Source: Actinophytocola algeriensis (GTDB lineage Bacteria; Actinomycetota; Actinomycetes; Mycobacteriales; Pseudonocardiaceae). From it: a stretch of 64,000 bases of DNA. The notes beneath the pieces are model-generated. The model was given only the letters and a program-made list of their open reading frames with translations, was not told where the DNA came from and did no database searches. Position numbers and translations under genes: made by a program. Each line of letters starts with the position of its first letter. Position 1 is the first letter of the stretch. Positions 21,125-38,548 of the stretch are shown here, in pieces. The stretch covers positions 124,001 to 188,000 of the forward strand of contig NZ_JACHJQ010000005.1 in assembly GCF_014203735.1 (NCBI RefSeq), written 5' to 3'.

Positions 21125-22384
21125 TCACCACCACCCGAACGCGAGCCACGCGATCGGGGGCGCGACCACGATCGAGATGAGGCCGTAGGTCAACAGCTGG
21201 CGGAACAGCCGAGGCCGGGCCGACGGTTCCGCGGCACCGAGGATGAGGCCGCCGGTGATGCCGAGCGGGTTGATGTCGACGAGGATCGAGGCCAGCGCGA
21301 GGGCGAGGACGGCGCCGACGGGGGAGACGCCGTCGGCGACCAGTGTTGGCAGCAGGGGCATGGTGGTGACGAAGACCGCGATGGAGCTGGCGGCGAACGA
21401 CGTGACACCCGCGATGTAGCACAGCACCAGCAGGCTGAGGCTCGGCGAGCCCTCGATCCGCAGCAGGTCGCTGATCTTCTCGAAGGCACCCAGGTGCTGC
21501 ATCAGCCCCACATAGGTCAGCAGTCCGCCGATCAGCAGGACCACGCCCCACGGGATCTTCGACACGACCGCGCCGGGCGCCAGTTTCAGCACCAGTTGCA
21601 GCAACACGGCCGCGGTCAGGCCGAGGTAGCCCACGTTCATGTCGAAGCCGACCGACAGGACGACGACGGCGAGCATGCACGCGAGGGTGAGCGCGCGGGC
21701 ACCCATGCCCGCGGCCGGTGTCTCGGAGTCCACATCGGACAGTCCGCGGCCTGCCGCCGGAGTGGTGACGCGGCCGCGCGGCACGGCACCGGTGCCTACG
21801 CCGATCACCAGGCACACCACGCACACGACCACACCGGTCAGCAGGCCGCCGAGCAGGAACGACACCGGCGCCGACGACGGCAGGCCGAGACCGAGCTTGT
21901 CACCCTGCCCGCGTGCGGACACGCCGTAGACGGCGAGCGGTGAGAGCAGGCCGCTGATGATGCCGGTGACGCCCAGGACCGCGGCGACGAGCGGCGAGTA
22001 CCGGTAGCGCGCGGCGAGCCCGAGCGCGATGGGCGCGACGATCGCGGTCGCGGCGGCGGGCAGCGTGCCGACCGCGGTCAGCACCGCGCCGATGACGAAC
22101 GGGACCAGCGGCACCAGCACCGCGCGTCCACCGACCAGCCGCAACAGCAGGTCGAGCAGCCAGTCGAGCGTCCCGTTGAGGTGGGCGACCGCGAACAACG
22201 CCGTGACGCCGACGATGAGCACGAAGAAGTCGGCCGGGAAGAACCCGGTCACCTCGTCCGTCGGCACCCCGGCCGCCAGACCGAGCAGGAACGCCGCCGC
22301 GAGCGCGGCGCTGCCGAGGTCGAACCTCGGCAGCAGCGTCGCCGCGAACAGGGCGACCAGCACGATGATGGACGCGACTGCCAT
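21125..22384 (-). CDS. MatC-like dicarboxylate carrier (SLC13/CitM-type permease)
   Basis: A 419-aa integral membrane protein with about 11-12 hydrophobic segments across its whole length. The N-terminal part, with FFPADFFVLIVGVTALFAVA and LPAAATAIVAPIALGL, resembles the dicarboxylate carrier MatC, and the C-terminal half repeats the ion-transporter fold. Expected substrates are malonate or another small dicarboxylate. The ATG is 1 nt downstream of the stop of the CoA-transferase gene, so the two are co-transcribed and the CoA-transferase may activate what this carrier imports. Confidence 0.82.
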   Translation of the reverse strand: MAVASIIVLVALFAATLLPRFDLGSAALAAAFLLGLAAGVPTDEVTGFFPADFFVLIVGVTALFAVAHLNGTLDWLLDLLLRLVGGRAVLVPLVPFVIGAVLTAVGTLPAAATAIVAPIALGLAARYRYSPLVAAVLGVTGIISGLLSPLAVYGVSARGQGDKLGLGLPSSAPVSFLLGGLLTGVVVCVVCLVIGVGTGAVPRGRVTTPAAGRGLSDVDSETPAAGMGARALTLACMLAVVVLSVGFDMNVGYLGLTAAVLLQLVLKLAPGAVVSKIPWGVVLLIGGLLTYVGLMQHLGAFEKISDLLRIEGSPSLSLLVLCYIAGVTSFAASSIAVFVTTMPLLPTLVADGVSPVGAVLALALASILVDINPLGITGGLILGAAEPSARPRLFRQLLTYGLISIVVAPPIAWLAFGWW

Positions 22385-22385
22385 G

Positions 22386-23558
22386 TCAGACCACTCCCTT
22401 GTGGCGCAACTCGTCGATCTCCGGTCCGGCCAGCCCGGCGAGGTCCCGCAGCACGTCCGCGGTGTGCTCGCCGAGGGCCGGGGCACCGGCGCCGACGACA
22501 CCGTCGAAGCCGGAGAAGCGCCCGGCGGGCGCCTGCATGAGCCGGCCCGCCACGGCCGTCACGGAACCGCGCGCGCGGATGTGCGGGTCGGCGCACAGGT
22601 CCGCCGCCGAGTTCACCGGGCCCGCGGCCACCCCGGCGGCGACGAGCGTGTCCATCAGTGGTTCGAGGTCGCGGGCGGCGACGAACCCGGCGACCCGCGC
22701 CTCGATCTCCTCGCGGTGCTCGAGCCGGGCGGTCATCGAGTCGTGCACGGCGAGGTCCGGCGCGTCCATGACCGCGACCAGCCGCCGCCACATCTGCTCG
22801 GTCGACGCGGGCAGCGCGAGCCACCGGCCGTCGCGGGTCCGGTAGAGGCTGTTGGGGCTGATGTGCGGGTTCTGGTTGCCCTGTCGCTCGCGGGAGTTGC
22901 CCGTGGCGCCGTACTCGACGACGAAGTCCTCCATCATCCGCAGCAGCGGTTCGTACAGCGGGATGTCGGCCAGCTGGGCCTCGCCGGTGCGGTCGCGCTG
23001 GCGCAGCGCCAGCATCGCGGCGAACGCGGCGTACATGCCGGTGACGCCGTCGGCGACGGGGTAGCCGGCGAACACCGGCGGCCCGTCGGGGTCACCGGTG
23101 CGGTAGGTGAGCCCGGCGAACGCCTCCGCGACCCGGGCGAACCCGGGGCGCTCGGCGTAGGGCCCGGTGCGGCCGAAGGCGCTCACGTGCACCATCACGA
23201 GGTCGGGCCGGTAGGCGCGGAGGTCGTCGAAGTCCACGCGGAACCGGCGCAGCGTCGTCGGGCGGAAGTTGGTCACCACCACGTCCGCGCCCTCGGCGAG
23301 ACGCCCGACCAGCCGCGCCGCCTCCGGGTGGTGCAGGTCGACCGTCACGCTGCGCTTGCCGCGGCCGACCATCGCCCACGCGGCCGAGAGCCCGTCCTCG
23401 AGCGGTGGGTAGTGCCGCGCCGGGTCACCGCCGTCGGGGTGCTCGATCTTGATCACCTCGGCGCCGAACTCGCCGAGCAGCGACGACGCCAGCGGGCCGG
23501 CGAGGATCGTCGACATGTCCAGGACGCGCACACCGCTCAGTGGTCCGTTGCTCGCCAC
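22386..23558 (-). CDS. Class III CoA-transferase (CaiB/BaiF family)
   Basis: A 390-aa enzyme of the formyl-CoA transferase type. LSGVRVLDMSTILAGPLASSLLGEFGAEVIKIEHPDGGDPAR holds the expected N-terminal motif, and the catalytic Asp is expected near the LADIPLYEPLLRMMEDF segment. Class III enzymes pass CoA between carboxylic acids through a mixed-anhydride mechanism and usually act as dimers with interlocked chains. The GTG at 23558 has AAAGGA 7 nt upstream. It is first in an operon with the MatC-like carrier and divergent from a LysR gene, suggesting uptake and activation of an organic acid whose identity is unknown. Confidence 0.88.
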   Translation of the reverse strand: MASNGPLSGVRVLDMSTILAGPLASSLLGEFGAEVIKIEHPDGGDPARHYPPLEDGLSAAWAMVGRGKRSVTVDLHHPEAARLVGRLAEGADVVVTNFRPTTLRRFRVDFDDLRAYRPDLVMVHVSAFGRTGPYAERPGFARVAEAFAGLTYRTGDPDGPPVFAGYPVADGVTGMYAAFAAMLALRQRDRTGEAQLADIPLYEPLLRMMEDFVVEYGATGNSRERQGNQNPHISPNSLYRTRDGRWLALPASTEQMWRRLVAVMDAPDLAVHDSMTARLEHREEIEARVAGFVAARDLEPLMDTLVAAGVAAGPVNSAADLCADPHIRARGSVTAVAGRLMQAPAGRFSGFDGVVGAGAPALGEHTADVLRDLAGLAGPEIDELRHKGVV

Positions 23559-23647
23559 GCATATTCCTTTCACACGGTCGTGAGGGTCTCCGCAGGTCAC
23601 CACACCATGCCGGGGCAACGCCCGCCCCGGGAACACGGCTTCGTCAC

Positions 23648-23676
23648 TCACCGGTGAAAGGTTCCGGCTTTATAGT
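23648..23676 (+). promoter_or_regulatory. LysR gene promoter and operator candidate
   Basis: The palindrome TCACCGGTGA (23648-23657) is followed by TATAGT (23671-23676), a good -10 hexamer. The ATG at 23683 falls where transcription should start, so the LysR mRNA is probably leaderless. The palindrome lies at the expected -35 region and could mediate autorepression and divergent control of the CoA-transferase operon. Confidence 0.55.
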
Positions 23677-23682
23677 GTCGGG

Positions 23683-24588
23683 ATGCGGGTCGAGCGGGCG
23701 CGGTACTTCCTGGCCGCCGTGGAGACCGGGTCGTTGCGTTCGGCGGCGGCCCGGTGCGGGGTGAGCCAGCCGACCGTCGGCCAGCAGATCGCGCTCCTCG
23801 AGGAGGAGCTCGACGTGGTCCTGATGACCCGCAGCCGCCGCGGGGTCCGCCCGACCGCGGCAGGCCAGGCGCTGCTGGAGCCGCTGCGCAGGCTGGTGGC
23901 GGCTGAGGAGGCGGTGCGCGAGTCGGCCACGGAGTCGGGCGGCGCCTACGCGGGCGGGGTGCACATCGGCGGGGTGTCGGTGACCGCGGAGACGATCATC
24001 GCGCCGGTCGTCGGCCACCTGCGCGCGCACCGGCCCGGCCTGCGGTTCACCGTCCGCGAGGGCGCCTCGGCCGACATCGAGGCCGCCGTGCTGGCGGGCG
24101 ACCTGGACTTCGGGGTGATCACGACGCCATCGCACCCGGCGCGGGCCGGCCTGCACCGGGTACCGCTCATCTCGGCGCCGGTCGGCGTCCTCGCCCCCGC
24201 CGACCACCCCCTGGCCGGGCGCGACCACGTCGACTGGGCGGACCTGGCGAGCTGGCCGATCGTCACCATGCGCGCGGGGACGGTGCTGTGGGACGTGCTG
24301 CACCGGCACGTGCCCCGCCCGGACGTCGTCGTCCAGGCCATGTCCGCCCGCACCCTGAAGGTGATGGTCGCGCAGGGTGCCGGGCTCGGGCTGCTCGGCG
24401 GCTTCGACACGTCGGCGGACATCCCCGACGTGGTCTGGCTGCCCGTGCGCGACGCGGCCCCGATCCGGTTGTGCCTGGTGCAGCGCAAGGACAGCCAGCC
24501 CTCCAGGGCCGCGCTCATCGTCCGCAGGCTCATCAAGGCCAGGGCGGACGAGCTGGCCGACCGTGCGGCGTCAGTCGAGCATCCGTGA
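23683..24588 (+). CDS. LysR family transcriptional regulator
   Basis: A 301-aa regulator with the N-terminal LysR helix-turn-helix (about 1-60; LRSAAARCGVSQPTVGQQIA) and a periplasmic-binding-like effector domain (about 90-295). It is divergent from the CoA-transferase/carrier operon, the classical arrangement for a LysR activator of the neighbouring catabolic genes; the co-inducer would then be the imported acid or its CoA ester. The 3' end overlaps a broken minus-strand gene by 18 bp. Confidence 0.9.
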   Translation: MRVERARYFLAAVETGSLRSAAARCGVSQPTVGQQIALLEEELDVVLMTRSRRGVRPTAAGQALLEPLRRLVAAEEAVRESATESGGAYAGGVHIGGVSVTAETIIAPVVGHLRAHRPGLRFTVREGASADIEAAVLAGDLDFGVITTPSHPARAGLHRVPLISAPVGVLAPADHPLAGRDHVDWADLASWPIVTMRAGTVLWDVLHRHVPRPDVVVQAMSARTLKVMVAQGAGLGLLGGFDTSADIPDVVWLPVRDAAPIRLCLVQRKDSQPSRAALIVRRLIKARADELADRAASVEHP

Positions 24589-25514: not shown

Positions 25515-26573
25515 TCAGCGGGGGAGGCCGCGGTAGTCGCAGTCGTAGCCGAAGTAACGCGGGCCGACGAGCTCCAGACCCGCCGGTGTGGTCCACCTCG
25601 GGTCGCAGGGCAGGCCCAGCACCGTCACGCGGTTGCCGTACCGCAGCGCCTCGGTGGTGACCGGTTCGCCGGTGTCGGTCTCCAGCACGCAGATCAGGTC
25701 CGGGGTCGTCGCCAGCACCTCGTCGTGGCGCGTCGCCAGGAGGTACTCGTTCTGGAACGACAGGCGCAGCTCCGCGTCCGTGCCCACGATGGTGGCGCCC
25801 CCGCGGCCGAAGCCGCCGGTGGTGGTGCGGTGCACGTCGGTGACCTTGCCGGTGATCAGGTGGACGCCGCCTGCGAGGTCGGTGACCGCCGTGATCGGGT
25901 TCGCGTGGTCGGCGCGTGCGGTGCGGACCGCGGCGCCGAGGCGGGCGGCGAGGGTGAGGGTGCCCGCGACCAGCCCGTCGGGCAGCTGCGCGCCGGTCAT
26001 CACGGTGTCGGCGGTGTACACCGAGCACCCGGTGGCGACGCAGGCGGCGCGCGCGATCCGCTCGGCCCACAGGTTGGAGACCGCGTTCACCGTGAGCGTG
26101 TTGCCCTTGTCGTCGGCGACGGCCATGGGGCTCGCCGGGATGCCGGCGAGCGTCGGCAGCACCATCTGCGCTTCGGGGAACGCCCTGCCCATCGCGTCGC
26201 CGTCGACGACGGGCAGCCCGGTCTCGGCGGCGAGGGCCAGTGGCACCAACGAGTTCATGCCGCCGATCTCGATCGCCACCAGGTGGGTCGCCGAGATGCC
26301 CCTCGCCTGTTCCAGCGCACGCAGCGCGGCGAGCGTCTCGGTGCCGTTCGGCAGTTTCTCGGTGCCGACCGTCGGCGCGCCGAGCATCGACACGGGCACG
26401 ACCACCGCGTCGGCCGGGACCTCGTCGACCGCGACCAGCGTGACCGGGCCGTGCCGGGTGATCGCCGCCTCGGCGAGGAGCCTGCCGAGGTAGGGGTCGC
26501 CGCCGCCACCCGTGCCGAGGATCCCGGCGCCACGGGCGATGTCGTCGAGGTCGGCGACGTCGATCTCACGCAC
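25515..26573 (-). CDS. DUF917 family protein (S-methyl thiohydantoin desulfurase-like)
   Basis: A 352-aa cytosolic protein of the DUF917 family, now linked to S-methyl thiohydantoin desulfurase-type hydrolases. The N-terminus ARGAGILGTGGGGDPYLGRL is diagnostic, followed by IEIGGMNSLVPLALAAETGLPVVDGDAMGRAFPE. It probably works on a hydantoin-like ring together with the HyuA protein encoded upstream; its start overlaps that gene's end by 8 nt, implying translational coupling. A second, divergent DUF917 gene (31158-32261) lies at the other end of the same cluster. Ring substrate unknown. Confidence 0.85.
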   Translation of the reverse strand: MREIDVADLDDIARGAGILGTGGGGDPYLGRLLAEAAITRHGPVTLVAVDEVPADAVVVPVSMLGAPTVGTEKLPNGTETLAALRALEQARGISATHLVAIEIGGMNSLVPLALAAETGLPVVDGDAMGRAFPEAQMVLPTLAGIPASPMAVADDKGNTLTVNAVSNLWAERIARAACVATGCSVYTADTVMTGAQLPDGLVAGTLTLAARLGAAVRTARADHANPITAVTDLAGGVHLITGKVTDVHRTTTGGFGRGGATIVGTDAELRLSFQNEYLLATRHDEVLATTPDLICVLETDTGEPVTTEALRYGNRVTVLGLPCDPRWTTPAGLELVGPRYFGYDCDYRGLPR

Positions 26574-28188
26574 AGGACACCCCGACCTGCCGGGACACCG
26601 GCGCCTGGACGCGGTCGAGGTCCAGGTCGCCGACCGCCTTCACCCGCACCCGCGTGGCGCCGCCGGGCAGGTAGGCGAGCGGCACCTCGTCGATCTCGAC
26701 GATCTCGACGCTGCCAGGACGGGCCCCGGCGGCCTCGGCCCGCGCGACCGCCTCTGCCTTCAGTTCGGTGAGCACCCGCACGCGGGTGCCGTCGGCGATC
26801 GGGACGACCCGGTCGAGCTCACCGCCCACCTTGGCGATCGCCGCGCCGATCGCGTTGGCCACGTCGGCGTGCTCCGGCCGCCGCACGTCGGGCAGTCCGG
26901 GGAGCGTGTCCGGCAGCACCACGCTGCCGCCGCCGACGAGGACCACCGGGAGCGGGCCGGGGGAGGTGCGCATCCGGTCCACCGCGTCGGCGATCCGTTC
27001 GGCGGTGGCCGCCAGCACCGCCCGCGCCCTGGCCTGGTCGAAGCGGCGGACCAGTGCGGTCGTCGTCCCGACCCTGGTCAGTCCCGCGGCGACGGCCACA
27101 TCGGTCAGCGTGAGCGTGTCACCGCCGAACACCAGGCCCCTGCTGGGCAGCGCGAAGCCGACGCTGTCCGGTCCGACCGTGGTCTTCTCGCCGTCGGAGA
27201 AGTGCCGGACGAGGCTGCCGCCGCCGATGCCGAGCGACAGCACGTCGGGCATCCGCCAGTTCGTGCGGATGCCCGCCACGTCGGTGGTCGAGGTGGTCTC
27301 GCGGGGGAAGCCGCCGACGAGCACGCCAATGTCGGTGGTGGTGCCGCCGACATCGATCACGGCGCAGTCCGCGACACCGGAGAGGAAGCCGGCGCCACGC
27401 ATGGAGTTCGTCGGCCCGGACGCGAACGTCGCCGCGGGGATTCGCCTGCCGTACTCCACGTCCATGAGCGTGCCGTCGTTCTGGCTGAGCAGCAGCGGTG
27501 CGGTGATGCCCGCGTCGGCGAGCGCGCCGGTCAGCGCGTCCACGAGCTCGTCGGCCAGGTCGACCAGCGCCGCGTTGAGCACGGTCGCGTTCTCCCGCTC
27601 CAGCAACCCGATCCGGCCGAACTCGTGCGAGCAGGACACCCGCAGCTCCGGCACCTCGTCGCGCAGGAGCTCCGCCGCCTCGTCCTCCATGGTCCCGTTC
27701 ACCGGCGCGAACACCGACGAGACGGCGACCGAGCGCACCCCGGCCGCCGCGAGGTCGGCCGCGGCCCGCCGCAGCTCGTCGGGGTCCAAAGTGGACAGTT
27801 GGCTGCCGTCGTACTCGTAGCCGCCGTGGCACAGGTACCACCGGTCGCCGACGGCCGTGCGCAGCCGCGCCGGCCAGCCGGTCAGTGGTGGGAGCGCGGT
27901 GGTCGCGGGCAGCCCGAGGCGGACGACCGCGGTCGGGGTGAGGCGGCGGGCCTCCACCACCGCGTTGGTGAAGTGCGTCGTGCCGATCATGACCGCGGTG
28001 ATCTCAGCGCGCTCGAACCCGTCCGGTGCGTCCGCGAGCAGCTCGCCGATCGCGGTGAGCACTCCGGTCGTGACGTCTTCTGTCGTCGGGGTCTTCACCG
28101 CCGCCACGACCCGCACGTCCTCGTCGTGGCGGCCCGCGATCAGCACCGCGTCCGTGTTGGTGCCCCCGACGTCGATGCCGATGCGCAC
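26566..28188 (-). CDS. Hydantoinase/oxoprolinase family protein (HyuA-like)
   Basis: A 540-aa ATP-dependent ring-opening enzyme subunit. Both ATPase phosphate motifs of the ASKHA-type fold are intact: IGIDVGGTNTDAV at residues 3-15 and VIDVGGTTTDIGVLVGG at about 277-293. GTTHFTNAVVE and GLLERENATVLNAAL are also family-typical. HyuA proteins phosphorylate the amide of hydantoins or 5-oxoproline to drive hydrolysis. The GTG at 28188 has GGGGAGG about 7 nt upstream, and a 147-bp gap to the permease gene leaves room for a separate promoter. Coupled to the downstream DUF917 gene by an 8-nt overlap. Confidence 0.9.
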   Translation of the reverse strand: MRIGIDVGGTNTDAVLIAGRHDEDVRVVAAVKTPTTEDVTTGVLTAIGELLADAPDGFERAEITAVMIGTTHFTNAVVEARRLTPTAVVRLGLPATTALPPLTGWPARLRTAVGDRWYLCHGGYEYDGSQLSTLDPDELRRAAADLAAAGVRSVAVSSVFAPVNGTMEDEAAELLRDEVPELRVSCSHEFGRIGLLERENATVLNAALVDLADELVDALTGALADAGITAPLLLSQNDGTLMDVEYGRRIPAATFASGPTNSMRGAGFLSGVADCAVIDVGGTTTDIGVLVGGFPRETTSTTDVAGIRTNWRMPDVLSLGIGGGSLVRHFSDGEKTTVGPDSVGFALPSRGLVFGGDTLTLTDVAVAAGLTRVGTTTALVRRFDQARARAVLAATAERIADAVDRMRTSPGPLPVVLVGGGSVVLPDTLPGLPDVRRPEHADVANAIGAAIAKVGGELDRVVPIADGTRVRVLTELKAEAVARAEAAGARPGSVEIVEIDEVPLAYLPGGATRVRVKAVGDLDLDRVQAPVSRQVGVSCA

Positions 28189-28335
28189 TGTTCCGCCTCC
28201 CCGAACTTCAAAGTGTTGGTCCCGACCCAGCGAACCCGGCGGACCGCAGGCGGTTGGTGGCTGAGCGCCGTCACGTTCCCCTGAGGTAACTGCCGATCAG
28301 GCCAAGACTGTGCACAAAGATCCATAGGGCACGCT

Positions 28336-29649
28336 CTACTCGGCGCCCTTCTCGACTGCCAGCTCTTTGGTGCCGCGCACCAGCCCGGCCTTGCCCGCGG
28401 CCAGGTACACGACACCCGCCACCACGAGGGAGTTGAGCGCGGGGATGCCGATCTGCTCCTGCTCGGTCCACCAGCCCAGCAGCGCGGCACCGGCCCAGAT
28501 CACCAGCGTGGCAGGCACCCAGCCCGGTTCGGTCGCCGGGAGTCTGCCGTGCTCGCGGGACTCGTCGAGCGCGGGACGCCAGCGGCGCACCAGGAAGTAC
28601 TCGGCCACCATGATGCCCGCGATCGGCGGCAGCGTGACACCGAGGACGGTGAGGAAGTCGGCGAACCGGTCGAGGATGCCCAACGCTGACAGCGCCGTGC
28701 CGAGCACGCCGATCGCGATCGTCGCCACGACCCGGTTCACCCGCACACCGAACACTGTGGACAGTGTGTTGACGAACCCGAGCGAGGAGCTGTACAGGTT
28801 CCAGTCGTTGATCTTCACGGTCGCCGACACGAGGATGATCACGCCGATGGTCCCGGACGTCGCCGCGAAGATCGTGACCACGTCGGCCGACCGGATCGCG
28901 TACGCGAGGATGACACCGACCAGGCCGAGCACGTACTGGCCCAGCGTGATCGAGACGACGGTCTGCTTCACGACGTCCCCGGTGGACCGGTTGAACCGCG
29001 TCATGTCCGGGGTGAGCACCGCGCCCGCGATGTAGGAGCCCGCCACGATCGTGGCGCCGGTCGCGATGGACATCGGCTCGCCGAAACCCGCGGTGCCGAG
29101 CAGGTCGCCGAGGCTGTGGTCGGACAGCTCGCCGATGACCGACCAGCCGGCCAGCAACAGGAACGCGGGCACCGTGAGGTAGGCGATCCACGCCATCCAC
29201 CGGAACCCGAACACCACGAGCGCGGTCACCGCGAGCCCGGTCACGATCGACCACAGCCACACGGGCACGCCGTCGACCAGCGCGTGCAGCCCCTCGGCGA
29301 AGATCGCGTTCTGGATGCCGAACCAGCCGATCAGGCTCGTCGCGACGACCAGCCCGATCAACGCGGACCCGGACCTCCCGAACCCGGTCCACCGCGCGAG
29401 GACCGATGTGGACAGTCCTTCCCGGACACCGGCGATGCCCGCGAAGATCGCGACCACCTCGAGGATCACCGAGCCGAGGGTGAGCGACCAGAACGCGCCC
29501 CAGAAGCCCATCCCGGCGCCGAGCGTGGCGCCGAGCAGGAACACGGTCAGGTCGGACAGCTGTCCGAAACGTTGCACGGCAACGGTCCACCACGGGTAGC
29601 GGCCCGTCGCGGGCACGCGGTCCAGGGCGTGGTCGTCGGCACCCAGCAT
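28336..29649 (-). CDS. NCS1 family nucleobase/hydantoin permease
   Basis: A 437-aa membrane protein with about 12 transmembrane segments. The N-terminal region (GATLGAGMGFWGAFWSLTLGS) and central SLIGWFGIQNAIF match NCS1 cytosine/purine/hydantoin symporters related to CodB and Mhp1, which use Na+ or H+ gradients. Its place between two HyuA-like genes makes a hydantoin, purine breakdown product or similar ring the likely cargo. The ATG lies 4 nt after the stop of the upstream HyuA paralogue, so they share one mRNA. Confidence 0.87.
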   Translation of the reverse strand: MLGADDHALDRVPATGRYPWWTVAVQRFGQLSDLTVFLLGATLGAGMGFWGAFWSLTLGSVILEVVAIFAGIAGVREGLSTSVLARWTGFGRSGSALIGLVVATSLIGWFGIQNAIFAEGLHALVDGVPVWLWSIVTGLAVTALVVFGFRWMAWIAYLTVPAFLLLAGWSVIGELSDHSLGDLLGTAGFGEPMSIATGATIVAGSYIAGAVLTPDMTRFNRSTGDVVKQTVVSITLGQYVLGLVGVILAYAIRSADVVTIFAATSGTIGVIILVSATVKINDWNLYSSSLGFVNTLSTVFGVRVNRVVATIAIGVLGTALSALGILDRFADFLTVLGVTLPPIAGIMVAEYFLVRRWRPALDESREHGRLPATEPGWVPATLVIWAGAALLGWWTEQEQIGIPALNSLVVAGVVYLAAGKAGLVRGTKELAVEKGAE

Positions 29650-29653
29650 CGGG

Positions 29654-31165
29654 TCAGATCCCGTTCTCTTCGAGCGGCACGGTCGTCGGTCGGGGGCGGC
29701 CCGCCGGGACCGCGGATCTCGGTGGTCCCTCGGCGCGGGCGAGGAGCGCGACGGCGGGTTCGGCGAGGTAGCTCAACGGCGTCTCCTCGCGCAGCTTCGC
29801 CCTGGCGCGCTGCGGATCCGCCCCGGCGCGGACCGCGGCGACGCGGGCCGCCTCGTCCACGGTTTCCCGCACCACGGAGGCATCGTCGTCGCTCAACGCC
29901 AGGATGCGTCTCGCCTCGCCACCGACCGGCGCGGTGGCGACCCCGACCGCCGCCGCGGCCGCCGCCCACGGCGGACACCGGACGCTGACGGTGCCCGCGA
30001 GGTGGGGTGGCAGGGTAGCCGCGAGTTCTTCCGCGCCCGGGCCGCCGAGCAGCAGGGGCAGGTCTGTCGGCGCGACCTTCGCCCGGTCGATCGCCTCGGT
30101 CAGCGCACGGGTGTCGCAGCGCGCGCCGTCGGGCCGGACCGGGACCTGCGCGACCATGCGCAGACTGGTCGGCACCCCGGCGATCGTCGTGTGCCCCGAG
30201 GTCAGCCTCGGCAGGCCCGCCGTGACCGCGCCGATCGAGGGGGCGGTGCCGTCCGCGCGGGTCAGCGCCACGAGCGTGTCCTGTTCACCGGCGAGCAGCG
30301 CCGTGCCGCGGACCGTCGCCGCCGCCGCGCCGCCGTACAGCGCCAGCGGGTGCGTCGCGGCGTAGTCGATCGCCATGATCGTGCCGTCGTTGCGAGCGAA
30401 GAAGACCTCCGCGTGCCCGAGGCCGTGCGCCACCAGGACCTGCTGCAACCGCTCGGCGTCCCGGCAGGCCGGTGGTGTCATCACGGCCTGCAGCACCGTC
30501 GCGTTCTCGCGTTCGAGCAGGCCGCTGCCGCCGATCTCGTGCGACAGCACGATCCGCACGCGGCCGCCGAGCTCCCGTTCCAGCACCGCGGCCGCGGCCA
30601 GCTCGTGGTCGGGGGTGAGGGTGGCGAACACCCCGGTGACCGCGACGGCCTCGACCTTGCCCGCCACCGTCCGCGCGAACGCGGCGAGACCGGCCTCGTC
30701 CAACGGTTCCAGCTCGGTGCCGTCCAGCCGCGCGCCACCGCTCACACACGTGCTGGCGAGCACCACCCGGTCCCGGAACTCCGGCGGCCACAGTGCGAGC
30801 GGGGGCACGGCGGTCGTGGCCGCGCCCAGCCGGACCGCCGCGACCGGCCCGTGCCCGCCGGTCCACGTCTCCTGCGGCGCCGAGCCATCGGTGTCGGGCT
30901 CCACCACGACGTCGTCCAGCTCGCTGATCGCGAACAGGACCCGGTCGATGTCGCCTGCCGTACCGCCGCCGTCCACCTCGGCGTGCGCGAGCAACGGTGC
31001 CAGCGCCGCGTGCAGCGCGTCGTCGGGGGTCGGCTTCCCGGTCAGCCGCCGCGTCGTGACGGCGACGACCGTGCCGTGGACGTCCACCAGCGCGCCCGCG
31101 ACTTCGTCGCCGTCCAACGCGATCCCGAGCCGGTAGCCGCCCGTGTGGTGTGCGAGGTCAGACAT
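29654..31165 (-). CDS. HyuA-like paralogue with degenerate ATPase motifs
   Basis: A 503-aa protein clearly homologous to the intact HyuA-like protein at 26566-28188: shared blocks are HEIGGSGLLERENATVLQAV and NDGTIMAIDYAATHPLALYG. However the two glycine-rich phosphate loops are lost: the N-terminal GIDVGGTNTD is replaced by GIALDGDEVAG, and the second loop by VALTRADGTAPSIGAVTAG. It is therefore probably not an ATPase and may be a regulatory or scaffold subunit. The frame is intact over its full length with normal codon use, so it is not an obvious pseudogene. Coupled by 8 nt to DUF917 upstream and 4 nt from the permease gene downstream. Confidence 0.83.
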   Translation of the reverse strand: MSDLAHHTGGYRLGIALDGDEVAGALVDVHGTVVAVTTRRLTGKPTPDDALHAALAPLLAHAEVDGGGTAGDIDRVLFAISELDDVVVEPDTDGSAPQETWTGGHGPVAAVRLGAATTAVPPLALWPPEFRDRVVLASTCVSGGARLDGTELEPLDEAGLAAFARTVAGKVEAVAVTGVFATLTPDHELAAAAVLERELGGRVRIVLSHEIGGSGLLERENATVLQAVMTPPACRDAERLQQVLVAHGLGHAEVFFARNDGTIMAIDYAATHPLALYGGAAAATVRGTALLAGEQDTLVALTRADGTAPSIGAVTAGLPRLTSGHTTIAGVPTSLRMVAQVPVRPDGARCDTRALTEAIDRAKVAPTDLPLLLGGPGAEELAATLPPHLAGTVSVRCPPWAAAAAAVGVATAPVGGEARRILALSDDDASVVRETVDEAARVAAVRAGADPQRARAKLREETPLSYLAEPAVALLARAEGPPRSAVPAGRPRPTTVPLEENGI

Positions 31166-32261
31166 CGTCGGCCGCCAGTGGGGAGTAGTCGAGGGACAGG
31201 CCGAACGCGCGCGGCCCGACGAGCGCCAGGCCTTCCGGCCGCTGCCACGAAGGCGGGCTCGGCAGCGCGAGCACCACGACCCGCAGCCCGTACCGCAGCT
31301 CCGGCACCGGTACGGGCTCGCCGCCGTGGATGTCGAACAGGGTGATGACGTCCGGTGTCGCCGCCAGCAGCTCGCCGTCCTCGAGCACCGCGTGGTACTC
31401 GTGCCCGGCCTCGAGGCGCAGCCAGCGGCCGTCGTCGCGGTTGACGCCCTCCAGCAGGATCGTCCGGCGGGTGTTGGTGGCGAGCGCGGCGGTGGCCTTG
31501 TTCTTGATCGGGTGCACGCCGGTCACCCGGCACTCGGCCAGCCGGGCGCCGCCGAACTCCTCGGCGAGCCGCGCGACGGCGGACCTCGTCGAGTGCCCGT
31601 CGCGCACGGCCTCCTCGAGCACGGTCCCGATCCGGAGCGCCTTGGTCATCGAGCCGTCGACGACGGCGCCGTCGGCCTGGTCGACGGTCATCACGTACTC
31701 GCTGCTCACCCCTCGGTTGCCGAACGCCGTCGCGACGTTGCGCGCGAGCCGTTCCAGCCACTCGCCGGACTCGGCCCGCACCAGGACCACGCGGTCGTGC
31801 TCGTCCGCGAGCACCGACGGGCTGGCGGGGATCCCGGCGACCTGCATGGCGACCTGCTCGATGCCGGGGAACGCGCGGCCCATGCCGTCGGCGTCCAGCA
31901 GGGGCAGGCCGGCGTGGGCCGCGAACGCGACCGACATGGGGCCGTTGCTGCCGCCGACCTCGGTGCACATCAGTGCCGCGACGCGGCGGTCGAAGTGGGC
32001 CTCGACCTGGCGGCGGATGACGACCGACTCACGGCCGGTGCCGATGCGCTCCACGTACACGTCCGGCGCGCCGAGTAACGCGCACGGCATCACCAGTTCG
32101 TCGTCGGGGAGCTCGGTTAGCTCGACCACGCGTACCGGTCCGTGTTCGGCGACCGCGTGCAGCGCCGCGGGTAACGTCTGGCCTGCCGGCCCGCCCCCGC
32201 CGGCGCCGAGGACGTCGCACCCCTTGGCGAACGCGGCAAGGTTGCCCTTGTCGAAATCCAC
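31158..32261 (-). CDS. DUF917 family protein (S-methyl thiohydantoin desulfurase-like)
   Basis: A 367-aa DUF917 protein, first gene of the minus-strand hydantoin-type operon. FAKGCDVLGAGGGGPAGQTL and TEVGGSNGPMSVAFAAHAGLPLLDADGMGRAFP parallel the other DUF917 protein here but the two are well diverged. GTG at 32261 is taken as start; a TTG sits one codon upstream. No clear ribosome binding site is seen and a TACTAG-like -10 (32271-32276, minus strand) lies about 10 bp away, so the mRNA may be leaderless. Divergent from a PucR regulator gene. Confidence 0.83.
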   Translation of the reverse strand: MDFDKGNLAAFAKGCDVLGAGGGGPAGQTLPAALHAVAEHGPVRVVELTELPDDELVMPCALLGAPDVYVERIGTGRESVVIRRQVEAHFDRRVAALMCTEVGGSNGPMSVAFAAHAGLPLLDADGMGRAFPGIEQVAMQVAGIPASPSVLADEHDRVVLVRAESGEWLERLARNVATAFGNRGVSSEYVMTVDQADGAVVDGSMTKALRIGTVLEEAVRDGHSTRSAVARLAEEFGGARLAECRVTGVHPIKNKATAALATNTRRTILLEGVNRDDGRWLRLEAGHEYHAVLEDGELLAATPDVITLFDIHGGEPVPVPELRYGLRVVVLALPSPPSWQRPEGLALVGPRAFGLSLDYSPLAADDV

Positions 32262-32321
32262 CAAGCCATGCTAGTAGCCTGTCACGCAGCGTGTTTAGTT
32301 TCGTACGACAGGAATTCGGTC

Positions 32322-33863
32322 GTGTTTGTCGCGCAACCACAAATCGAGGAGCTGGCCGGCGGGTCCAGCGTGGGTGAGCTCCTGTCCGCGCCGGAGCTCA
32401 CGTCGCTGACGCTGCTCGCCGGCGACGCGGCCAGGGTCGTGCGTTCGGTGCGGGTGATCGCCGACCTGCGGGAACTGCGCGCACTCGACGCCGACGAGGT
32501 GGCGGTCGTGGCCCCCGCGGTGTCCGCGCTGGCACAGGGCCACCAGTTCGACGTCGTACTCCGGGACACGGCCGCCACCGGTGCGGCGGCCGTGGTCCTC
32601 ACCGGTGTCGACGCCGACACGGTCGAGCCGACCGCGCGGCGCATCGCCGACCGGTGCGCGCTCGCGCTCCTCGTGGCACCGCCCGGCGCCGAGCCGACCC
32701 GGCTCGTGGTCGCCGTCGCGCGGGTGCTCAGCGGGGACACCGCCGCCGCCCTGGCCAGGGTCGACGCCGCGCGCAGGCTCATCGCCACGGCGGACACGGC
32801 CGAGGCGGTACTCGCCGCCGCGGCCGAGGCCCTCGCCACCGAGGTCGCGGTCCGCGCGCCCGGCCACGCAGAACCCGCCGCACTCGTCGAGGTGGACGGC
32901 GTCGCCGACGGTTACGTCACGGCCACGGTGCCCGAGCAGGCCCGTGCCGCCTGGGTGGTGGCGGCCCGAACCGTGGTGCAGCTCGCCGCGGACGCGTACG
33001 CGCGGGCGGTCGCGCGGAGCAGGCGGACCGACCTCGCGCCGATCCACGACCGGGGCAGGCTGCTCGGCGAACTGCTCCTCGCGCCGGAGCCGGAACGCGC
33101 GCCGCTCGTGGCCAGGGCCAGGGCGCTCGGTCTCGCCGTGGACGGCTGGCACCAGGTGCTGAGGTTCGAGCTGTCCTCGTCGCGGACCGACGCCGCCGCG
33201 GCGGACGGCGCCCCGGACCGGTCCGAGGCCGTCGGCAACAGCGCACTGGACACGGTGCTGGCCGACGGCGGGCCTGATGCCGCCGACAGCTGGCACGGCA
33301 CCCGCATCGGCGGCGACGTGCTCCTGGTGCGCACCACCGGCACCAGGCCCGGCCCGTCGGCGGCCCGTGTCGCGCACCGCGCCGCGACCGCCGCGCTGGC
33401 CGCGGCCAGGGACCGGTTCCCCGGGCTGGTGATCCGGTGCGGCATCGGTGGCGTGTACCGCAGGGCGGAAGGCCTGCGCACGTCCGCGACCGACGCGCGG
33501 GCGGCGCTCGCGGCCACCCGCCAGTCCACGCCGCCGCGCGACATCATCGCGATCGACGCCCTCGGCCTGAACCGCATGCTGGTCGAGTGGTACGCCTCCG
33601 ACACCACCCGCGCCTCCGTGGACGACATGCTCGCCCCGCTCGCCGAACTGGGGGCGCAGGCCGCGGAGGACGCCATCCGGACCCTGCAGTCCTATTTGGA
33701 CCACCAGAGCTCGCCGGCCAAGGCGGCGAAGGACCTCAACGTGCACCCGCAGACGATCGCCTACCGGCTGCGCAAGATCACCGCCATGCTGCACCTCGAC
33801 CTCAACGACGCCGAGCAGCGGCTGGCGTTGCAGCTCGCTTGCCGTGCCTGGCTGATGCGCTGA
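32322..33863 (+). CDS. PucR family transcriptional regulator
   Basis: A 513-aa regulator: N-terminal PucR-like sensory domain (about 5-130; SVGELLSAPELTSLTLLAGD), a GGDEF-like central region, and a C-terminal PucR/CdaR helix-turn-helix (about 455-510; LQSYLDHQSSPAKAAKDLNV, NVHPQTIAYRLRKI). PucR regulators commonly control purine, hydantoin or amino-acid catabolism in response to the substrate. Divergent placement beside the DUF917-HyuA-NCS1 operon strongly suggests it regulates it. GTG at 32322 is chosen because AGGAA lies 7 nt upstream. Confidence 0.87.
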   Translation: MFVAQPQIEELAGGSSVGELLSAPELTSLTLLAGDAARVVRSVRVIADLRELRALDADEVAVVAPAVSALAQGHQFDVVLRDTAATGAAAVVLTGVDADTVEPTARRIADRCALALLVAPPGAEPTRLVVAVARVLSGDTAAALARVDAARRLIATADTAEAVLAAAAEALATEVAVRAPGHAEPAALVEVDGVADGYVTATVPEQARAAWVVAARTVVQLAADAYARAVARSRRTDLAPIHDRGRLLGELLLAPEPERAPLVARARALGLAVDGWHQVLRFELSSSRTDAAAADGAPDRSEAVGNSALDTVLADGGPDAADSWHGTRIGGDVLLVRTTGTRPGPSAARVAHRAATAALAAARDRFPGLVIRCGIGGVYRRAEGLRTSATDARAALAATRQSTPPRDIIAIDALGLNRMLVEWYASDTTRASVDDMLAPLAELGAQAAEDAIRTLQSYLDHQSSPAKAAKDLNVHPQTIAYRLRKITAMLHLDLNDAEQRLALQLACRAWLMR

Positions 33864-34134: not shown

Positions 34135-34226
34135 CCGGTGTACTGGCGAACGTTGTCGGTGGTGTCCTCGCGCTGCTGCTGATCAGCTACCTGTTCGTGG
34201 CCCTCATCCGGCCGGAGAAGTTCTGA
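34131..34226 (+). CDS. kdpF: Potassium-transporting ATPase subunit KdpF
   Basis: A 31-residue single-span peptide (VLALLLISYLFVALIRPEKF at the C-terminus), matching KdpF, which stabilises the KdpABC complex in the membrane. The GTG start overlaps the previous stop (GTGA) and its stop overlaps the kdpA ATG (TGATG), so expression is tightly coupled. Order kdpF-A-B-C is the standard one. Confidence 0.88.
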   Translation: MTGVLANVVGGVLALLLISYLFVALIRPEKF

Positions 34227-35887
34227 TGTCGTCCACTGTGGCCGGTCTCGTGCAGGTCGGCGTGCTGCTGGTGGTGCTGGCGGCCGTGTACAAGCCGCTC
34301 GGCGACTACATGGCGCGGGTGTTCACCGACCGCGGGCACCTCGCGGTCGAGCGGGTGATCTACCGGCTCGGGCGGGTCGACGCGGAGAGCCAGCAGCGTT
34401 GGCCCGTGTACGCGGCGGGGGTGCTCGGGTTCTCGTTCGTGTCGGTCGTGCTGCTGTACCTCGTCCAGCGGCTGCAACCGTTCCTGCCCTTCGACTTCGG
34501 CCGTGGCGCGGTCGGCTCCGGGATCGCGTTCAACACGGCGATCAGCTTCGTGACGAACACGAACTGGCAGTCGTACGTGCCCGAGGTCGTCATGGGGCAC
34601 TCGGTGCAGATGCTGGGTCTCACCGTGCAGAACTTCGTGTCCGCCGGTGCCGGGCTCGCCGTGGCGATCGCACTGGTCCGCGGCTTCACCCGGTCGCGGA
34701 CCGACTGGCTCGGCAACTTCTGGGTGGACCTCACCCGCGGCATCGTGCGGATCCTGCTGCCGATGTCGTTCGTGTTCGCGATCGTGCTGATCGCGCTCGG
34801 GGTGGTGCAGAGCCTGAGGTCCGGTGTGGACGTGACGAACCCGGACGGCTCGGCGAGCACGATCGCGCTGGCCCCCGCCGCGTCGCAGGAGGCCATCAAG
34901 GAGCTGGGTACCAACGGTGGCGGCATCTTCAGCGCGAACTCCGCGCACCCGTTCGAGAACCCGAACGGCTGGACGAACCTGGTCGAGATCTTCCTGATCA
35001 TGGTGATCCCGGTCTGTCTCACGAGGACGTTCGGCACACTGGTCGGCAACCGTAGGCAGGGGTACGCGCTGCTGTCGGCGATGGGGGTGCTGTGGACGGG
35101 CATGCTCGCGGTGATCTGGTGGGCCGAGGCGCACCCGAACGGTCCCGCGGCGCTGCTGGCGGGTTCCGCCATGGAGGGCAAGGAAACCCGCTTCGGCATC
35201 CCCGGCTCCGCGTTGTTCGCCGACGCGACCACCGGCACCTCGACGGGCGCGGTCAACTCGATGCACGACAGCTACACCGGTCTCGGTGGCGGCGGCACGA
35301 TGCTGAACATGCTGTTCGGTGAGATGACGCCCGGCGGTGTCGGCACCGGGCTGTACTCGATCCTGGTGACGGCGATCATCGCGGTGTTCCTCGCCGGGCT
35401 CATGGTCGGCCGCACACCGGAGTACCTGGGCAAGAAGCTGGGGCGCCGCGAGGTCACGGCGGCGGCGGTCGCGATCCTCTCGATGCCCACGCTGGTGCTG
35501 CTCGGCGCGGGCATCGCCATCATGCTGCCCGGCACTCCGGGCTACCTGGCGAACTCCGGCAGCCACGGCTGGTCCGAGGTGCTCTACGCGTACACCTCCG
35601 CGTCGAACAACAACGGCAGCGCGTTCGCGGGCATCACCGTGACGAGCCCGTGGTTCCAGTCCTCGCTCGGCATCTGCATGCTGCTCGGCAGGCTGATCCC
35701 GATCCTCGCGGTGCTGTGCCTCGCCGGTTCGCTCGCCGCGCAGAAGAAGGTGCCCGCCACCGCGGGCACGCTGCCGACACACGGCCCGCTGTTCAGCTCC
35801 CTGCTGACCGGCACCGTCGTGCTCGTCGCGGCGCTCACGTTCATCCCCGCACTCGCTCTCGGCCCCATCGCGGAGGCACTCGCATGA
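34226..35887 (+). CDS. kdpA: Potassium-transporting ATPase potassium-binding subunit KdpA
   Basis: A 553-aa membrane protein with about 10 transmembrane spans and four pore-loop repeats. Selectivity-filter regions are visible: [14 protein letters not shown] (about residues 108-121) and [22 protein letters not shown] (about 225-245), with later repeats near [15 protein letters not shown] and [12 protein letters not shown]. KdpA binds and admits K+ with high affinity before KdpB drives its pumping. Length is normal for the family. Its stop overlaps kdpB by ATGA. Confidence 0.96.
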
Positions 35888-37911
35888 CCACCACCGAGCG
35901 ACCCGCCGCCGAACAGCGGCGGCACCACGTGGAGCGGACCGGCAGGCCCGGCGCCGGGGTGTTCAACCCCCGGCAGTTGCTCGTGTCCTTCCCCGACGCG
36001 CTGCGCAAACTCGGCCCCCGCCACCAGCTCCGCAACCCGGTCATGTTCGTCGTCTGGGCGGGTTCCGTGCTCAGCACGGTGCTCGCGATCGGCGACCCTG
36101 ACGTGTTCACGATCCTCGTCACCGGGTGGCTGTGGTGCACGGTCCTGTTCGCGAACCTGGCCGAGGCGGTCGCCGAGGGCCGGGGCAAGGCGCAGGCGGA
36201 AACCTTGCGCCGCACCAGGAAGGAGACCACGGCGCGCAGGCTCCGCGCCGACGGCACCGAGGAACACGTGCCGGGTGCCGAGCTGCGGGCCGGTGACCGG
36301 GTGGTGGTCGAGGCCGGGCAGGTGATCCCCGGCGACGGCGAGGTCGTCGAGGGCATCGCGACGGTCGACGAGTCGGCGATCACCGGTGAGTCGGCACCCG
36401 TCATCAGGGAGTCCGGCGGTGACTTCTCGTCGGTCACCGGCGGCACCACCGTGCTGTCCGACCGGATCGTCGTGCGGATCACCACGAAACCGGGCGAGTC
36501 CTTCGTGGACCGGATGATCGCGCTCGTGGAGGGCGCGCGGCGGCAGAAGACGCCGAACGAGATCGCGCTGACGATCCTGCTCGCCACCCTGACGATCATC
36601 TTCCTGCTCGCGGTGGTCGCGTTGCAGCCGGTCGCCCGCTACGCGGGCAGCGTCCAGCCGGTGATCGTGCTGACCGCGTTGCTGGTCTGCCTGATCCCGA
36701 CCACCATCGGCGCGCTGCTGAGCGCCATCGGCATCGCGGGCATGGACCGGCTGGTGCGGCGCAACGTGCTCGCCACGTCCGGCCGCGCGGTCGAGGCCGC
36801 AGGCGACGTGTCCACGTTGCTGCTCGACAAGACCGGCACCATCACCTTCGGCAACCGGCGGGCCACGGAGCTGATCCCGGTCGACGGGACGGCGATGGCG
36901 ACGCTGCGGGAGGCGGCCCGCCTCGCGAGCATCGCCGACACCACCCCCGAGGGGCGGTCCGTGCTCGACCTCTGCGGTGGCCCCGTCGAGGTGGCGGAGC
37001 CGCACGAGTTCGTGCCGTTCACCGCGCGGTCCAGGATGAGCGGCGTCGATATCGGCGACCGCCACCTCCGCAAGGGCGCGGCGAGCGCGTTCGCCGCCAC
37101 CGAGGAGTCCCGCCGGGTCGTCGACGAGATCGCCGCGGGTGGCGGCACCCCGTTGGTGGTGGCCGAGAACGAGCGGGTGCTGGGCGTCATCCGGCTGTCC
37201 GACGTGGTGAAACCCGCGATGAAGGAGCGGTTCGCCGAGCTGCGCGCAATGGGCATCCGGACCGTCATGATCACGGGTGACAACCCGTTGACGGCGAAGG
37301 CGATCGCCGAGGAGTCCGGTGTGGACGACTACCTGGCGGAGGCGCGGCCGGAGGACAAGATGGCGCTGATCCGCAGGGAACAGGAGGGCGGGCGGCTCGT
37401 CGCGATGACCGGCGACGGCACCAACGACGCCCCCGCGCTCGCGCAGTCCGACGTCGGTGTCGCGATGAACTCGGGGACCATGGCGGCCAAGGAGGCCGGG
37501 AACATGGTCGACCTGGACTCCGACCCGACCAAGCTGATCGAGATCGTGGAGATCGGCAAGCAGCTGCTGATCACCCGCGGCGCGCTCACGACGTTCAGCG
37601 TGGCCAACGACCTCGCGAAGTACTTCGCGATCCTGCCTGCCATGTTCGCGGGGATCTTCCCGCAGCTGGACAAGCTCAACGTCATGGGCCTGCACTCGCC
37701 CGCGTCGGCGATCACGTCGGCGGTGGTGTTCAACGCGCTGGTCATCGTCGGCCTGATCCCGCTCGCGCTGCGCGGTGTCCGCTACCGCCCGGCCACGGCG
37801 ACGGCGTTGCTGCGCCGCAACCTCCTCGTCTACGGGGTCGGTGGTGTCGTCACGCCGTTCGCCGGCATCTGGCTCATCGACCTCGTGGTCCGACTCATCC
37901 CGGGAATGTGA
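35884..37911 (+). CDS. kdpB: Potassium-transporting P-type ATPase subunit KdpB
   Basis: A 675-aa P-type ATPase. Present are the actuator motif TGES ([11 protein letters not shown]), the phosphorylation site DKTGTIT ([12 protein letters not shown], about residue 316) and the hinge [12 protein letters not shown]; about seven membrane spans. It hydrolyses ATP to power K+ uptake through KdpA under K+ limitation or osmotic stress. The ATG overlaps the kdpA stop; the frame extends upstream inside kdpA but only as a shadow. Followed by kdpC after 1 nt. Confidence 0.97.
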
Positions 37912-37912
37912 C

Positions 37913-38548
37913 ATGAACTCGCTCGCCAGACAGGCACTCGCGGGCCTGCGGGTCCTCGTGGTGCTGACCGTGCTGCTCGGCATCCTCTACCCGCTCGGCG
38001 TGTGGGCGGTCAGCAGGCTCCCCGGGCTGGCCGCCAACGCCGAGGGCTCCGTGGTCACCGAGAACGGGCAGGCCGTCGGTTCGGACCTGATCGGCATCGA
38101 CCCGGTCGCGGAGGACCCGGCGCACGACCCGTGGTTCCACACCCGGCCCTCCGCGGTCGCCCGTGACCTCGACGGCGACGGCGCCCCCGACCTGCTCGGC
38201 CCCGCGGACCCGTCGGTCTCGGCCGGGTCCAACAAGGGTGGTTTCGACGCGGACCTCGTGGCGGCGGTCCGGGCCCGCAAGGAGATCGTCGCGGCACGCG
38301 AGGGGGTCGACCCGGCTGAGGTGCCCGCCGACGCGGTGACCGCGTCGGCGTCCGGGCTCGACCCGGCCATCAGCCCGGCCTACGCCGAGTTGCAGGTGCC
38401 GAGGGTGGCACGGGAGAACGGGCTGTCCGAGGAACAGGTCCGCGCCCTGGTCGGTGCCCACACCACCGGCCGCGGCATGGGTGTCCTCGGTGAGCCCGGC
38501 GTGCGCGTGCTGACGCTCAACCTGGCCGTCCAGGCCGCCCGGCGGTGA
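37913..38548 (+). CDS. kdpC: Potassium-transporting ATPase subunit KdpC
   Basis: A 211-aa subunit with one N-terminal transmembrane helix (VLVVLTVLLGILYPLGVWAV) and an extracytoplasmic domain containing SNKGGFDADLVAAV and SASGLDPAISPAYAELQVPR, the KdpC signature. It probably acts as an assembly or catalytic chaperone for KdpB. Last gene of the operon; no kdpD/kdpE follows, so control must come from genes elsewhere. Converges with the CDF exporter gene 36 bp away. Confidence 0.95.
   Translation: MNSLARQALAGLRVLVVLTVLLGILYPLGVWAVSRLPGLAANAEGSVVTENGQAVGSDLIGIDPVAEDPAHDPWFHTRPSAVARDLDGDGAPDLLGPADPSVSAGSNKGGFDADLVAAVRARKEIVAAREGVDPAEVPADAVTASASGLDPAISPAYAELQVPRVARENGLSEEQVRALVGAHTTGRGMGVLGEPGVRVLTLNLAVQAARR

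Follow-up and report, generated by a model that had tools for sequence, protein, structure and literature searches.

A mirrored DUF917/HyuA cluster in Actinophytocola algeriensis combines a permease-linked pair with a conserved pair whose HyuA lacks the ATP-site motifs

In the HyuA family, the motifs PHOSPHATE 1 (P1), PHOSPHATE 2 (P2) and ADENOSINE have been defined from published structures (PMC5214803). Work on the caprolactamase CapA shows that mutating two aspartates of the phosphate site, one each in P1 and P2, cuts product formation strongly (PMC8453981). Clusters of the cyclodipeptide-oxidase type also contain DUF917 genes, with a putative role (PMC11055893). A literature search covering DUF917 with HyuA or PucR, as well as pseudo-hydantoinases, did not find the mirrored arrangement analysed here, and the literature searched holds no account of the NCS1-HyuA-DUF917-(DUF917)-DUF917'-PucR operon that it resembles in part.

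The window, a stretch of 64,000 nucleotides from A. algeriensis contig NZ_JACHJQ010000005.1, carries the order DUF917_2-HyuA_2-NCS1-HyuA_1-DUF917_1 on the reverse strand with a divergent PucR gene (Table 1), and both open reading frames and Pfam agree with this mirrored layout, as described in the first-pass annotation. Gene spacing and a conserved -10-like box suggest that the cluster forms one operon plus a divergent regulator. The two pairs share only 33% (HyuA) and 38% (DUF917) identity and fall into separate clades, which excludes a recent duplication and agrees with the earlier view that the paralogues are diverged. The same annotation stressed that both pairs overlap by exactly 8 nt. 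This is true within the window, but the equality is a coincidence, because the DUF917_2/HyuA_2 overlap is unconserved among relatives, measuring 8 nt in two Actinophytocola genomes only and 1-4 nt in nearly all others; a shared 8-nt signature is thereby ruled out. Directly beyond PucR lies an apparent kdp potassium-transport operon (window 34226-38548), and genes for a MatC/CitMHS transporter and a CoA-transferase III with a divergent LysR regulator make up an organic-acid type cluster at 21125-24588.

Table 1. Features of the mirrored cluster, in window positions.
Feature	Position	Strand	Basis
DUF917_1, S-Me-THD-like, partner of HyuA_1	25515-26573	-	ORF, Pfam, motif comparison
HyuA_1, intact ASKHA phosphate motifs	26566-28188	-	ORF, Pfam, motif comparison
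HyuA_1/DUF917_1 overlap, 8 nt, kept in all mirrored clusters	26566-26573	-	overlap comparison
NCS1 family permease	28336-29649	-	ORF, Pfam, sequence comparison
HyuA_2, pseudo-HyuA, predicted ASKHA fold	29654-31165	-	ORF, motif comparison, model
DUF917_2/HyuA_2 overlap, 8 nt, unconserved	31158-31165	-	overlap comparison
DUF917_2, C-domain QNE replaced by GHE; likely start GTG 32261	31158-32264	-	Pfam, motifs, alignment of relatives
Intergenic region, -10-like TAGCAT	32262-32321	.	alignment with 10 relatives
PucR-family regulator, divergent; likely start GTG 32322 (ORF listed from 32268)	32322-33863	+	Pfam, alignment of relatives

The two HyuA proteins differ sharply at the ATP site. HyuA_1 matches Hydant_A_N (E 3e-35) and Hydantoinase_A (E 3e-30) and carries both phosphate motifs, DVGGTNTD at residue 6 and DVGGTTTD at residue 279, with P1 and P2 kept in all mirrored-cluster HyuA_1 proteins. 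It is a putative ATPase that is shorter than CapA and lacks the canonical GxxPGP of the ADENOSINE motif, where alignment to N-methylhydantoinase (7hk5) places GFALPSRG. HyuA_2 matches the same Pfam families weakly (Hydant_A_N E 1e-7; Hydantoinase_A E 9e-5, the latter below the curated cut-off) and lacks both phosphate motifs together with a 69-residue block equivalent to HyuA_1 residues 328-396, the adenosine region. In all 18 genomes with an ortholog, P1, P2 and the adenosine region are missing. Structural modelling of HyuA_2 (pLDDT 80.7) indicates that the ASKHA fold of HyuA/CapA/Apc type is retained, with Z scores of 22.3 against the Apc subunit 5l9w_b (435 residues aligned) and 21.2 against 6yra_A. 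HyuA_1 and HyuA_2 are most alike in the alpha/beta insert (44% identity), against 26-28% in the phosphate loops, a pattern that would fit retention of the insert as a docking or substrate face. The HyuA proteins paired with DUF917 form a series from intact to fully degenerate (DVGGTNTD, DVGSTNTD, DVGPTNTD, none). Automatic annotation as an ATP-dependent hydantoinase is thus misleading for a conserved HyuA subfamily without an ATP site, and this series, in DUF917/HyuA pairs without an adjoining HyuB, could reveal which role HyuA plays for DUF917 apart from using ATP.

The DUF917 proteins differ as well. S-Me-THD_N and S-Me-THD_C domains are found in both, and DUF917_1 keeps D246, R249, F255 and Q274-N275-E276. 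DUF917_2 keeps the N-domain residues and has lost D246, R249, F255, Q274 and N275 of the C-domain, all of them invariant or nearly so in the reference set of 67 DUF917s from other pair types. All 12 mirrored-type loci have GHE in place of QNE, and the G recurs in six of six Kutzneria-type loci; QNE itself is present in 66-67 of the 67 reference proteins. Having lost residues that are invariant in other DUF917s, DUF917_2 may be non-enzymatic. Its model matches the solved structure 2o3i with a Z score of 37, and besides 2o3i the fold search returned no DUF917 relative standing clear of background.

The permease matches PF02133 (Transp_cyt_pur, E 5e-22) and resembles the cytosine permease 7qoa in sequence more than it does the hydantoin permease Mhp1; PucR combines HTH_30 (E 5e-21) with GGDEF_2 (E 9e-10). 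The likely DUF917_2 start is leaderless, with the -10-like box six bases upstream and a similar box in relatives. Alignment of the intergenic region with 10 relatives yielded no conserved palindrome that could serve as a PucR operator.

Genome comparison shows that the arrangement is a recurrent unit. The five-gene order is present in 12 genomes counting the window, 11 of them with PucR, and this recurrence supports the view of the cluster as a conserved unit of catabolic type that includes a permease and is regulated by a PucR protein. The complete six-gene order occurs in Actinophytocola oryzae, Actinocrispum wychmicini and two Kibdelosporangium species, and a scan with DUF917_2 gave seven named relatives, all Pseudonocardiaceae; one mirrored cluster, L115 (genome G751), comes from a different family within the class. 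HyuA_2 orthologs above 500 bits are found in 18 of 390 Pseudonocardiaceae genomes, and no other genome reaches 300 bits in the class-wide and phylum-wide samples. All 12 mirrored-cluster HyuA_1 proteins form one clade (SH-aLRT 95; 98/99 in another tree for the members included), in trees of which two out of three come from quick searches and all contain some long branches. The possibility that other genomes place the two pairs in unrelated operons is half borne out: each half also stands alone, yet the unit itself is conserved. Downstream of DUF917_1, a GGDEF (diguanylate cyclase) gene follows directly in a Kibdelosporangium genome (L038 16472-17125, 4-nt overlap), another lies at 22 nt in a different genus (L106 4229-5581), and a similar open reading frame takes the same place in L037.

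Pair 2 (DUF917_2 and HyuA_2) also persists without the remaining genes. In six Kutzneria-type loci it stands alone, without NCS1, HyuA_1, DUF917_1 or PucR. These loci share flanking genes with the mirrored cluster of genome G226, namely a reductase, behind which pair 2 lies, and TetR in five of six and an S11 peptidase in six of six, so the other cluster genes were probably deleted in place. Lone pairs as the ancestral state are disfavoured by the flanks and the clade held in common with the mirrored cluster. Since Kutzneria retained pair 2 after losing the permease, HyuA_1, DUF917_1 and PucR, pair 2 works without them. A remnant cluster (L036/L092) has lost NCS1 and HyuA_1 and has a broken DUF917_1, with PucR and pair 2 whole. 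HyuA_2 has a dN/dS ratio of about 0.18 in each of two groups, and for the pair-2 genes the ratio lies at 0.14-0.23 in Kibdelosporangium-type and Kutzneria-type genomes and at 0.38 between two Actinophytocola genomes. These low ratios indicate that pair 2 is maintained by selection, and the HyuA_2 value together with conservation across genera excludes a decaying pseudogene. In Kutzneria sp. 744, HyuA_2 (L040 11038-12418; L040/L107) is split into two overlapping frames and is likely a broken copy.

As judged from its sequence, pair 2 is a neofunctionalised pseudo-pair and no second ATP-driven ring opener. The favoured explanation is a two-module cluster in which pair 2 acts as an ATP-independent complex of DUF917 and pseudo-HyuA, a reading for which we consider the chances evenly balanced. 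Module A (NCS1-HyuA_1-DUF917_1) is a widespread actinobacterial operon, presumably for uptake and ring opening. By analogy with CapAB, HyuA_1 probably activates the ring carbonyl of a cyclic amide or ureide with ATP, and DUF917_1 would replace HyuB in hydrolysing the activated ring. Module B (PucR-DUF917_2-HyuA_2) derives from a different lineage, one in which the genes run in the opposite order. Its pseudo-HyuA may serve as a scaffold or allosteric subunit of DUF917_2, and the complex would then act on a related compound for which activation by ATP is unnecessary.

The relation between the modules emerges from pair order in 81 loci, a non-random sample picked from search hits. Pairs in the order HyuA-then-DUF917 have an intact HyuA in 42 loci, with two diverged exceptions (L164 and L167) that break any rule of invariable intactness. 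The order DUF917-then-HyuA comes with an intact HyuA in 15 loci and a degenerate one in 40, among which L153 is doubtful. In 39 sampled loci where a HyuA-DUF917 pair is joined by a further module, 22 have DUF917'-PucR, at the end of the NCS1-HyuA-DUF917 operon, 17 have DUF917-pseudoHyuA, and none has both. The window PucR groups with the PucRs of DUF917-HyuA modules, apart from those of DUF917'-PucR modules. Because the modules are mutually exclusive and PucR groups in this way, module A seems to have acquired module B in place of its usual 3' end. In L131-L150, NCS1-HyuA-DUF917 operons end in a diverged DUF917' that overlaps PucR by about 4 nt. A recurrent DUF917-pseudo-HyuA-PucR cassette, variably with genes for an M20 peptidase, DUF1028, a luciferase-like monooxygenase and a second PucR, is present in other actinobacteria (L118, L119, L122, L126, L127 and L129). 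Pseudo-HyuA cassettes elsewhere adjoin genes for an M20 peptidase, DUF1028, a luciferase-like monooxygenase and transporters, and the pairs beside M20 peptidase and DUF1028 genes retain QNE in their DUF917.

This exchange also fits a sensor role, since module B lies beside PucR in most genomes and seems to substitute for DUF917'-PucR, which weighs against the favoured explanation. Pair 2 could then be an enzyme-derived ligand sensor or co-regulator that cooperates with PucR in governing the NCS1-HyuA_1-DUF917_1 operon, a reading we regard as possible though rather unlikely. The mutual exclusivity and the PucR grouping both speak for it, as do the changed C-domain residues in the DUF917 of both module types and the 4-nt overlap of pseudo-HyuA with PucR in many lone cassettes. 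It is weakened by the loci where no PucR gene turned up next to pair 2, namely G226, the one mirrored cluster without it, and the Kutzneria-type loci (mostly with TetR instead), where purifying selection persists. PucR also accompanies DUF917-HyuA pairs with an intact HyuA, which excludes a linkage specific to the pseudo-pair. That the whole enzyme pair of DUF917 and pseudo-HyuA was converted into a ligand-sensing module for PucR, exchangeable with DUF917'-PucR, is likewise rather unlikely; if true, cells would sense the ring compound through an inactive copy of the very pair that breaks it down.

A single heteromeric complex of all four proteins, with HyuA_2 as the inactive partner of HyuA_1 in the manner of Apc, is improbable. 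It accords with the single operon of the mirrored cluster and with acetophenone carboxylase (Apc; PMC5214803), in which HyuA-like subunits are paired, but both Apc subunits retain their ATP motifs, HyuA_2 is the only HyuA match in five Kutzneria-type genomes, and many loci carry module A and no pair 2. That both pairs are functional ATP-dependent ring openers differing in specificity, as implied at first, would suit the family domains found in both, but this reading is highly improbable, and ATP use by both HyuAs is unsupported, as every HyuA_2 ortholog lacks the site.

For the two-module explanation, the most likely substrate class is a cyclic ureide, lactam or cyclic-dipeptide-like ring. A sulfur-containing substrate such as a thiohydantoin, one of the options raised at first, finds no support in the NCBIfam scores, which fall well short of the curated cut-offs for S-methyl thiohydantoin desulfurase (DUF917_1 117 bits, DUF917_2 63 bits; cut-off 450) and for thiohydantoin desulfurase (89 and 67 bits; cut-off 440). 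Of the complete uptake and ring-opening route envisaged with it, the conserved unit of permease, HyuA and regulator stands, but completeness is unproven and the cluster has no HyuB to go with HyuA_1; the genome encodes a single HyuB, roughly 100 kb distant (C5:47962-49521).

Compared with described systems, the cluster resembles the HyuA/CapA/Apc family in the PHOSPHATE 1 and PHOSPHATE 2 motifs of HyuA_1 and in the modelled fold of HyuA_2, but differs in the missing HyuB, the shorter C-terminus and the absence of ATP-binding features from HyuA_2. Its DUF917 proteins share both domains (PF06032 and PF20906) and the fold with the S-methyl thiohydantoin and thiohydantoin desulfurases, and are set apart by their low scores, their pairing with HyuA and the loss of QNE in DUF917_2. 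The Pseudonocardiaceae operon NCS1-HyuA-DUF917-(DUF917)-DUF917'-PucR corresponds to module A except at the operon's 3' end; unlike that operon, the mirrored cluster has no DUF917'-PucR and instead carries PucR-DUF917_2-pseudoHyuA upstream.
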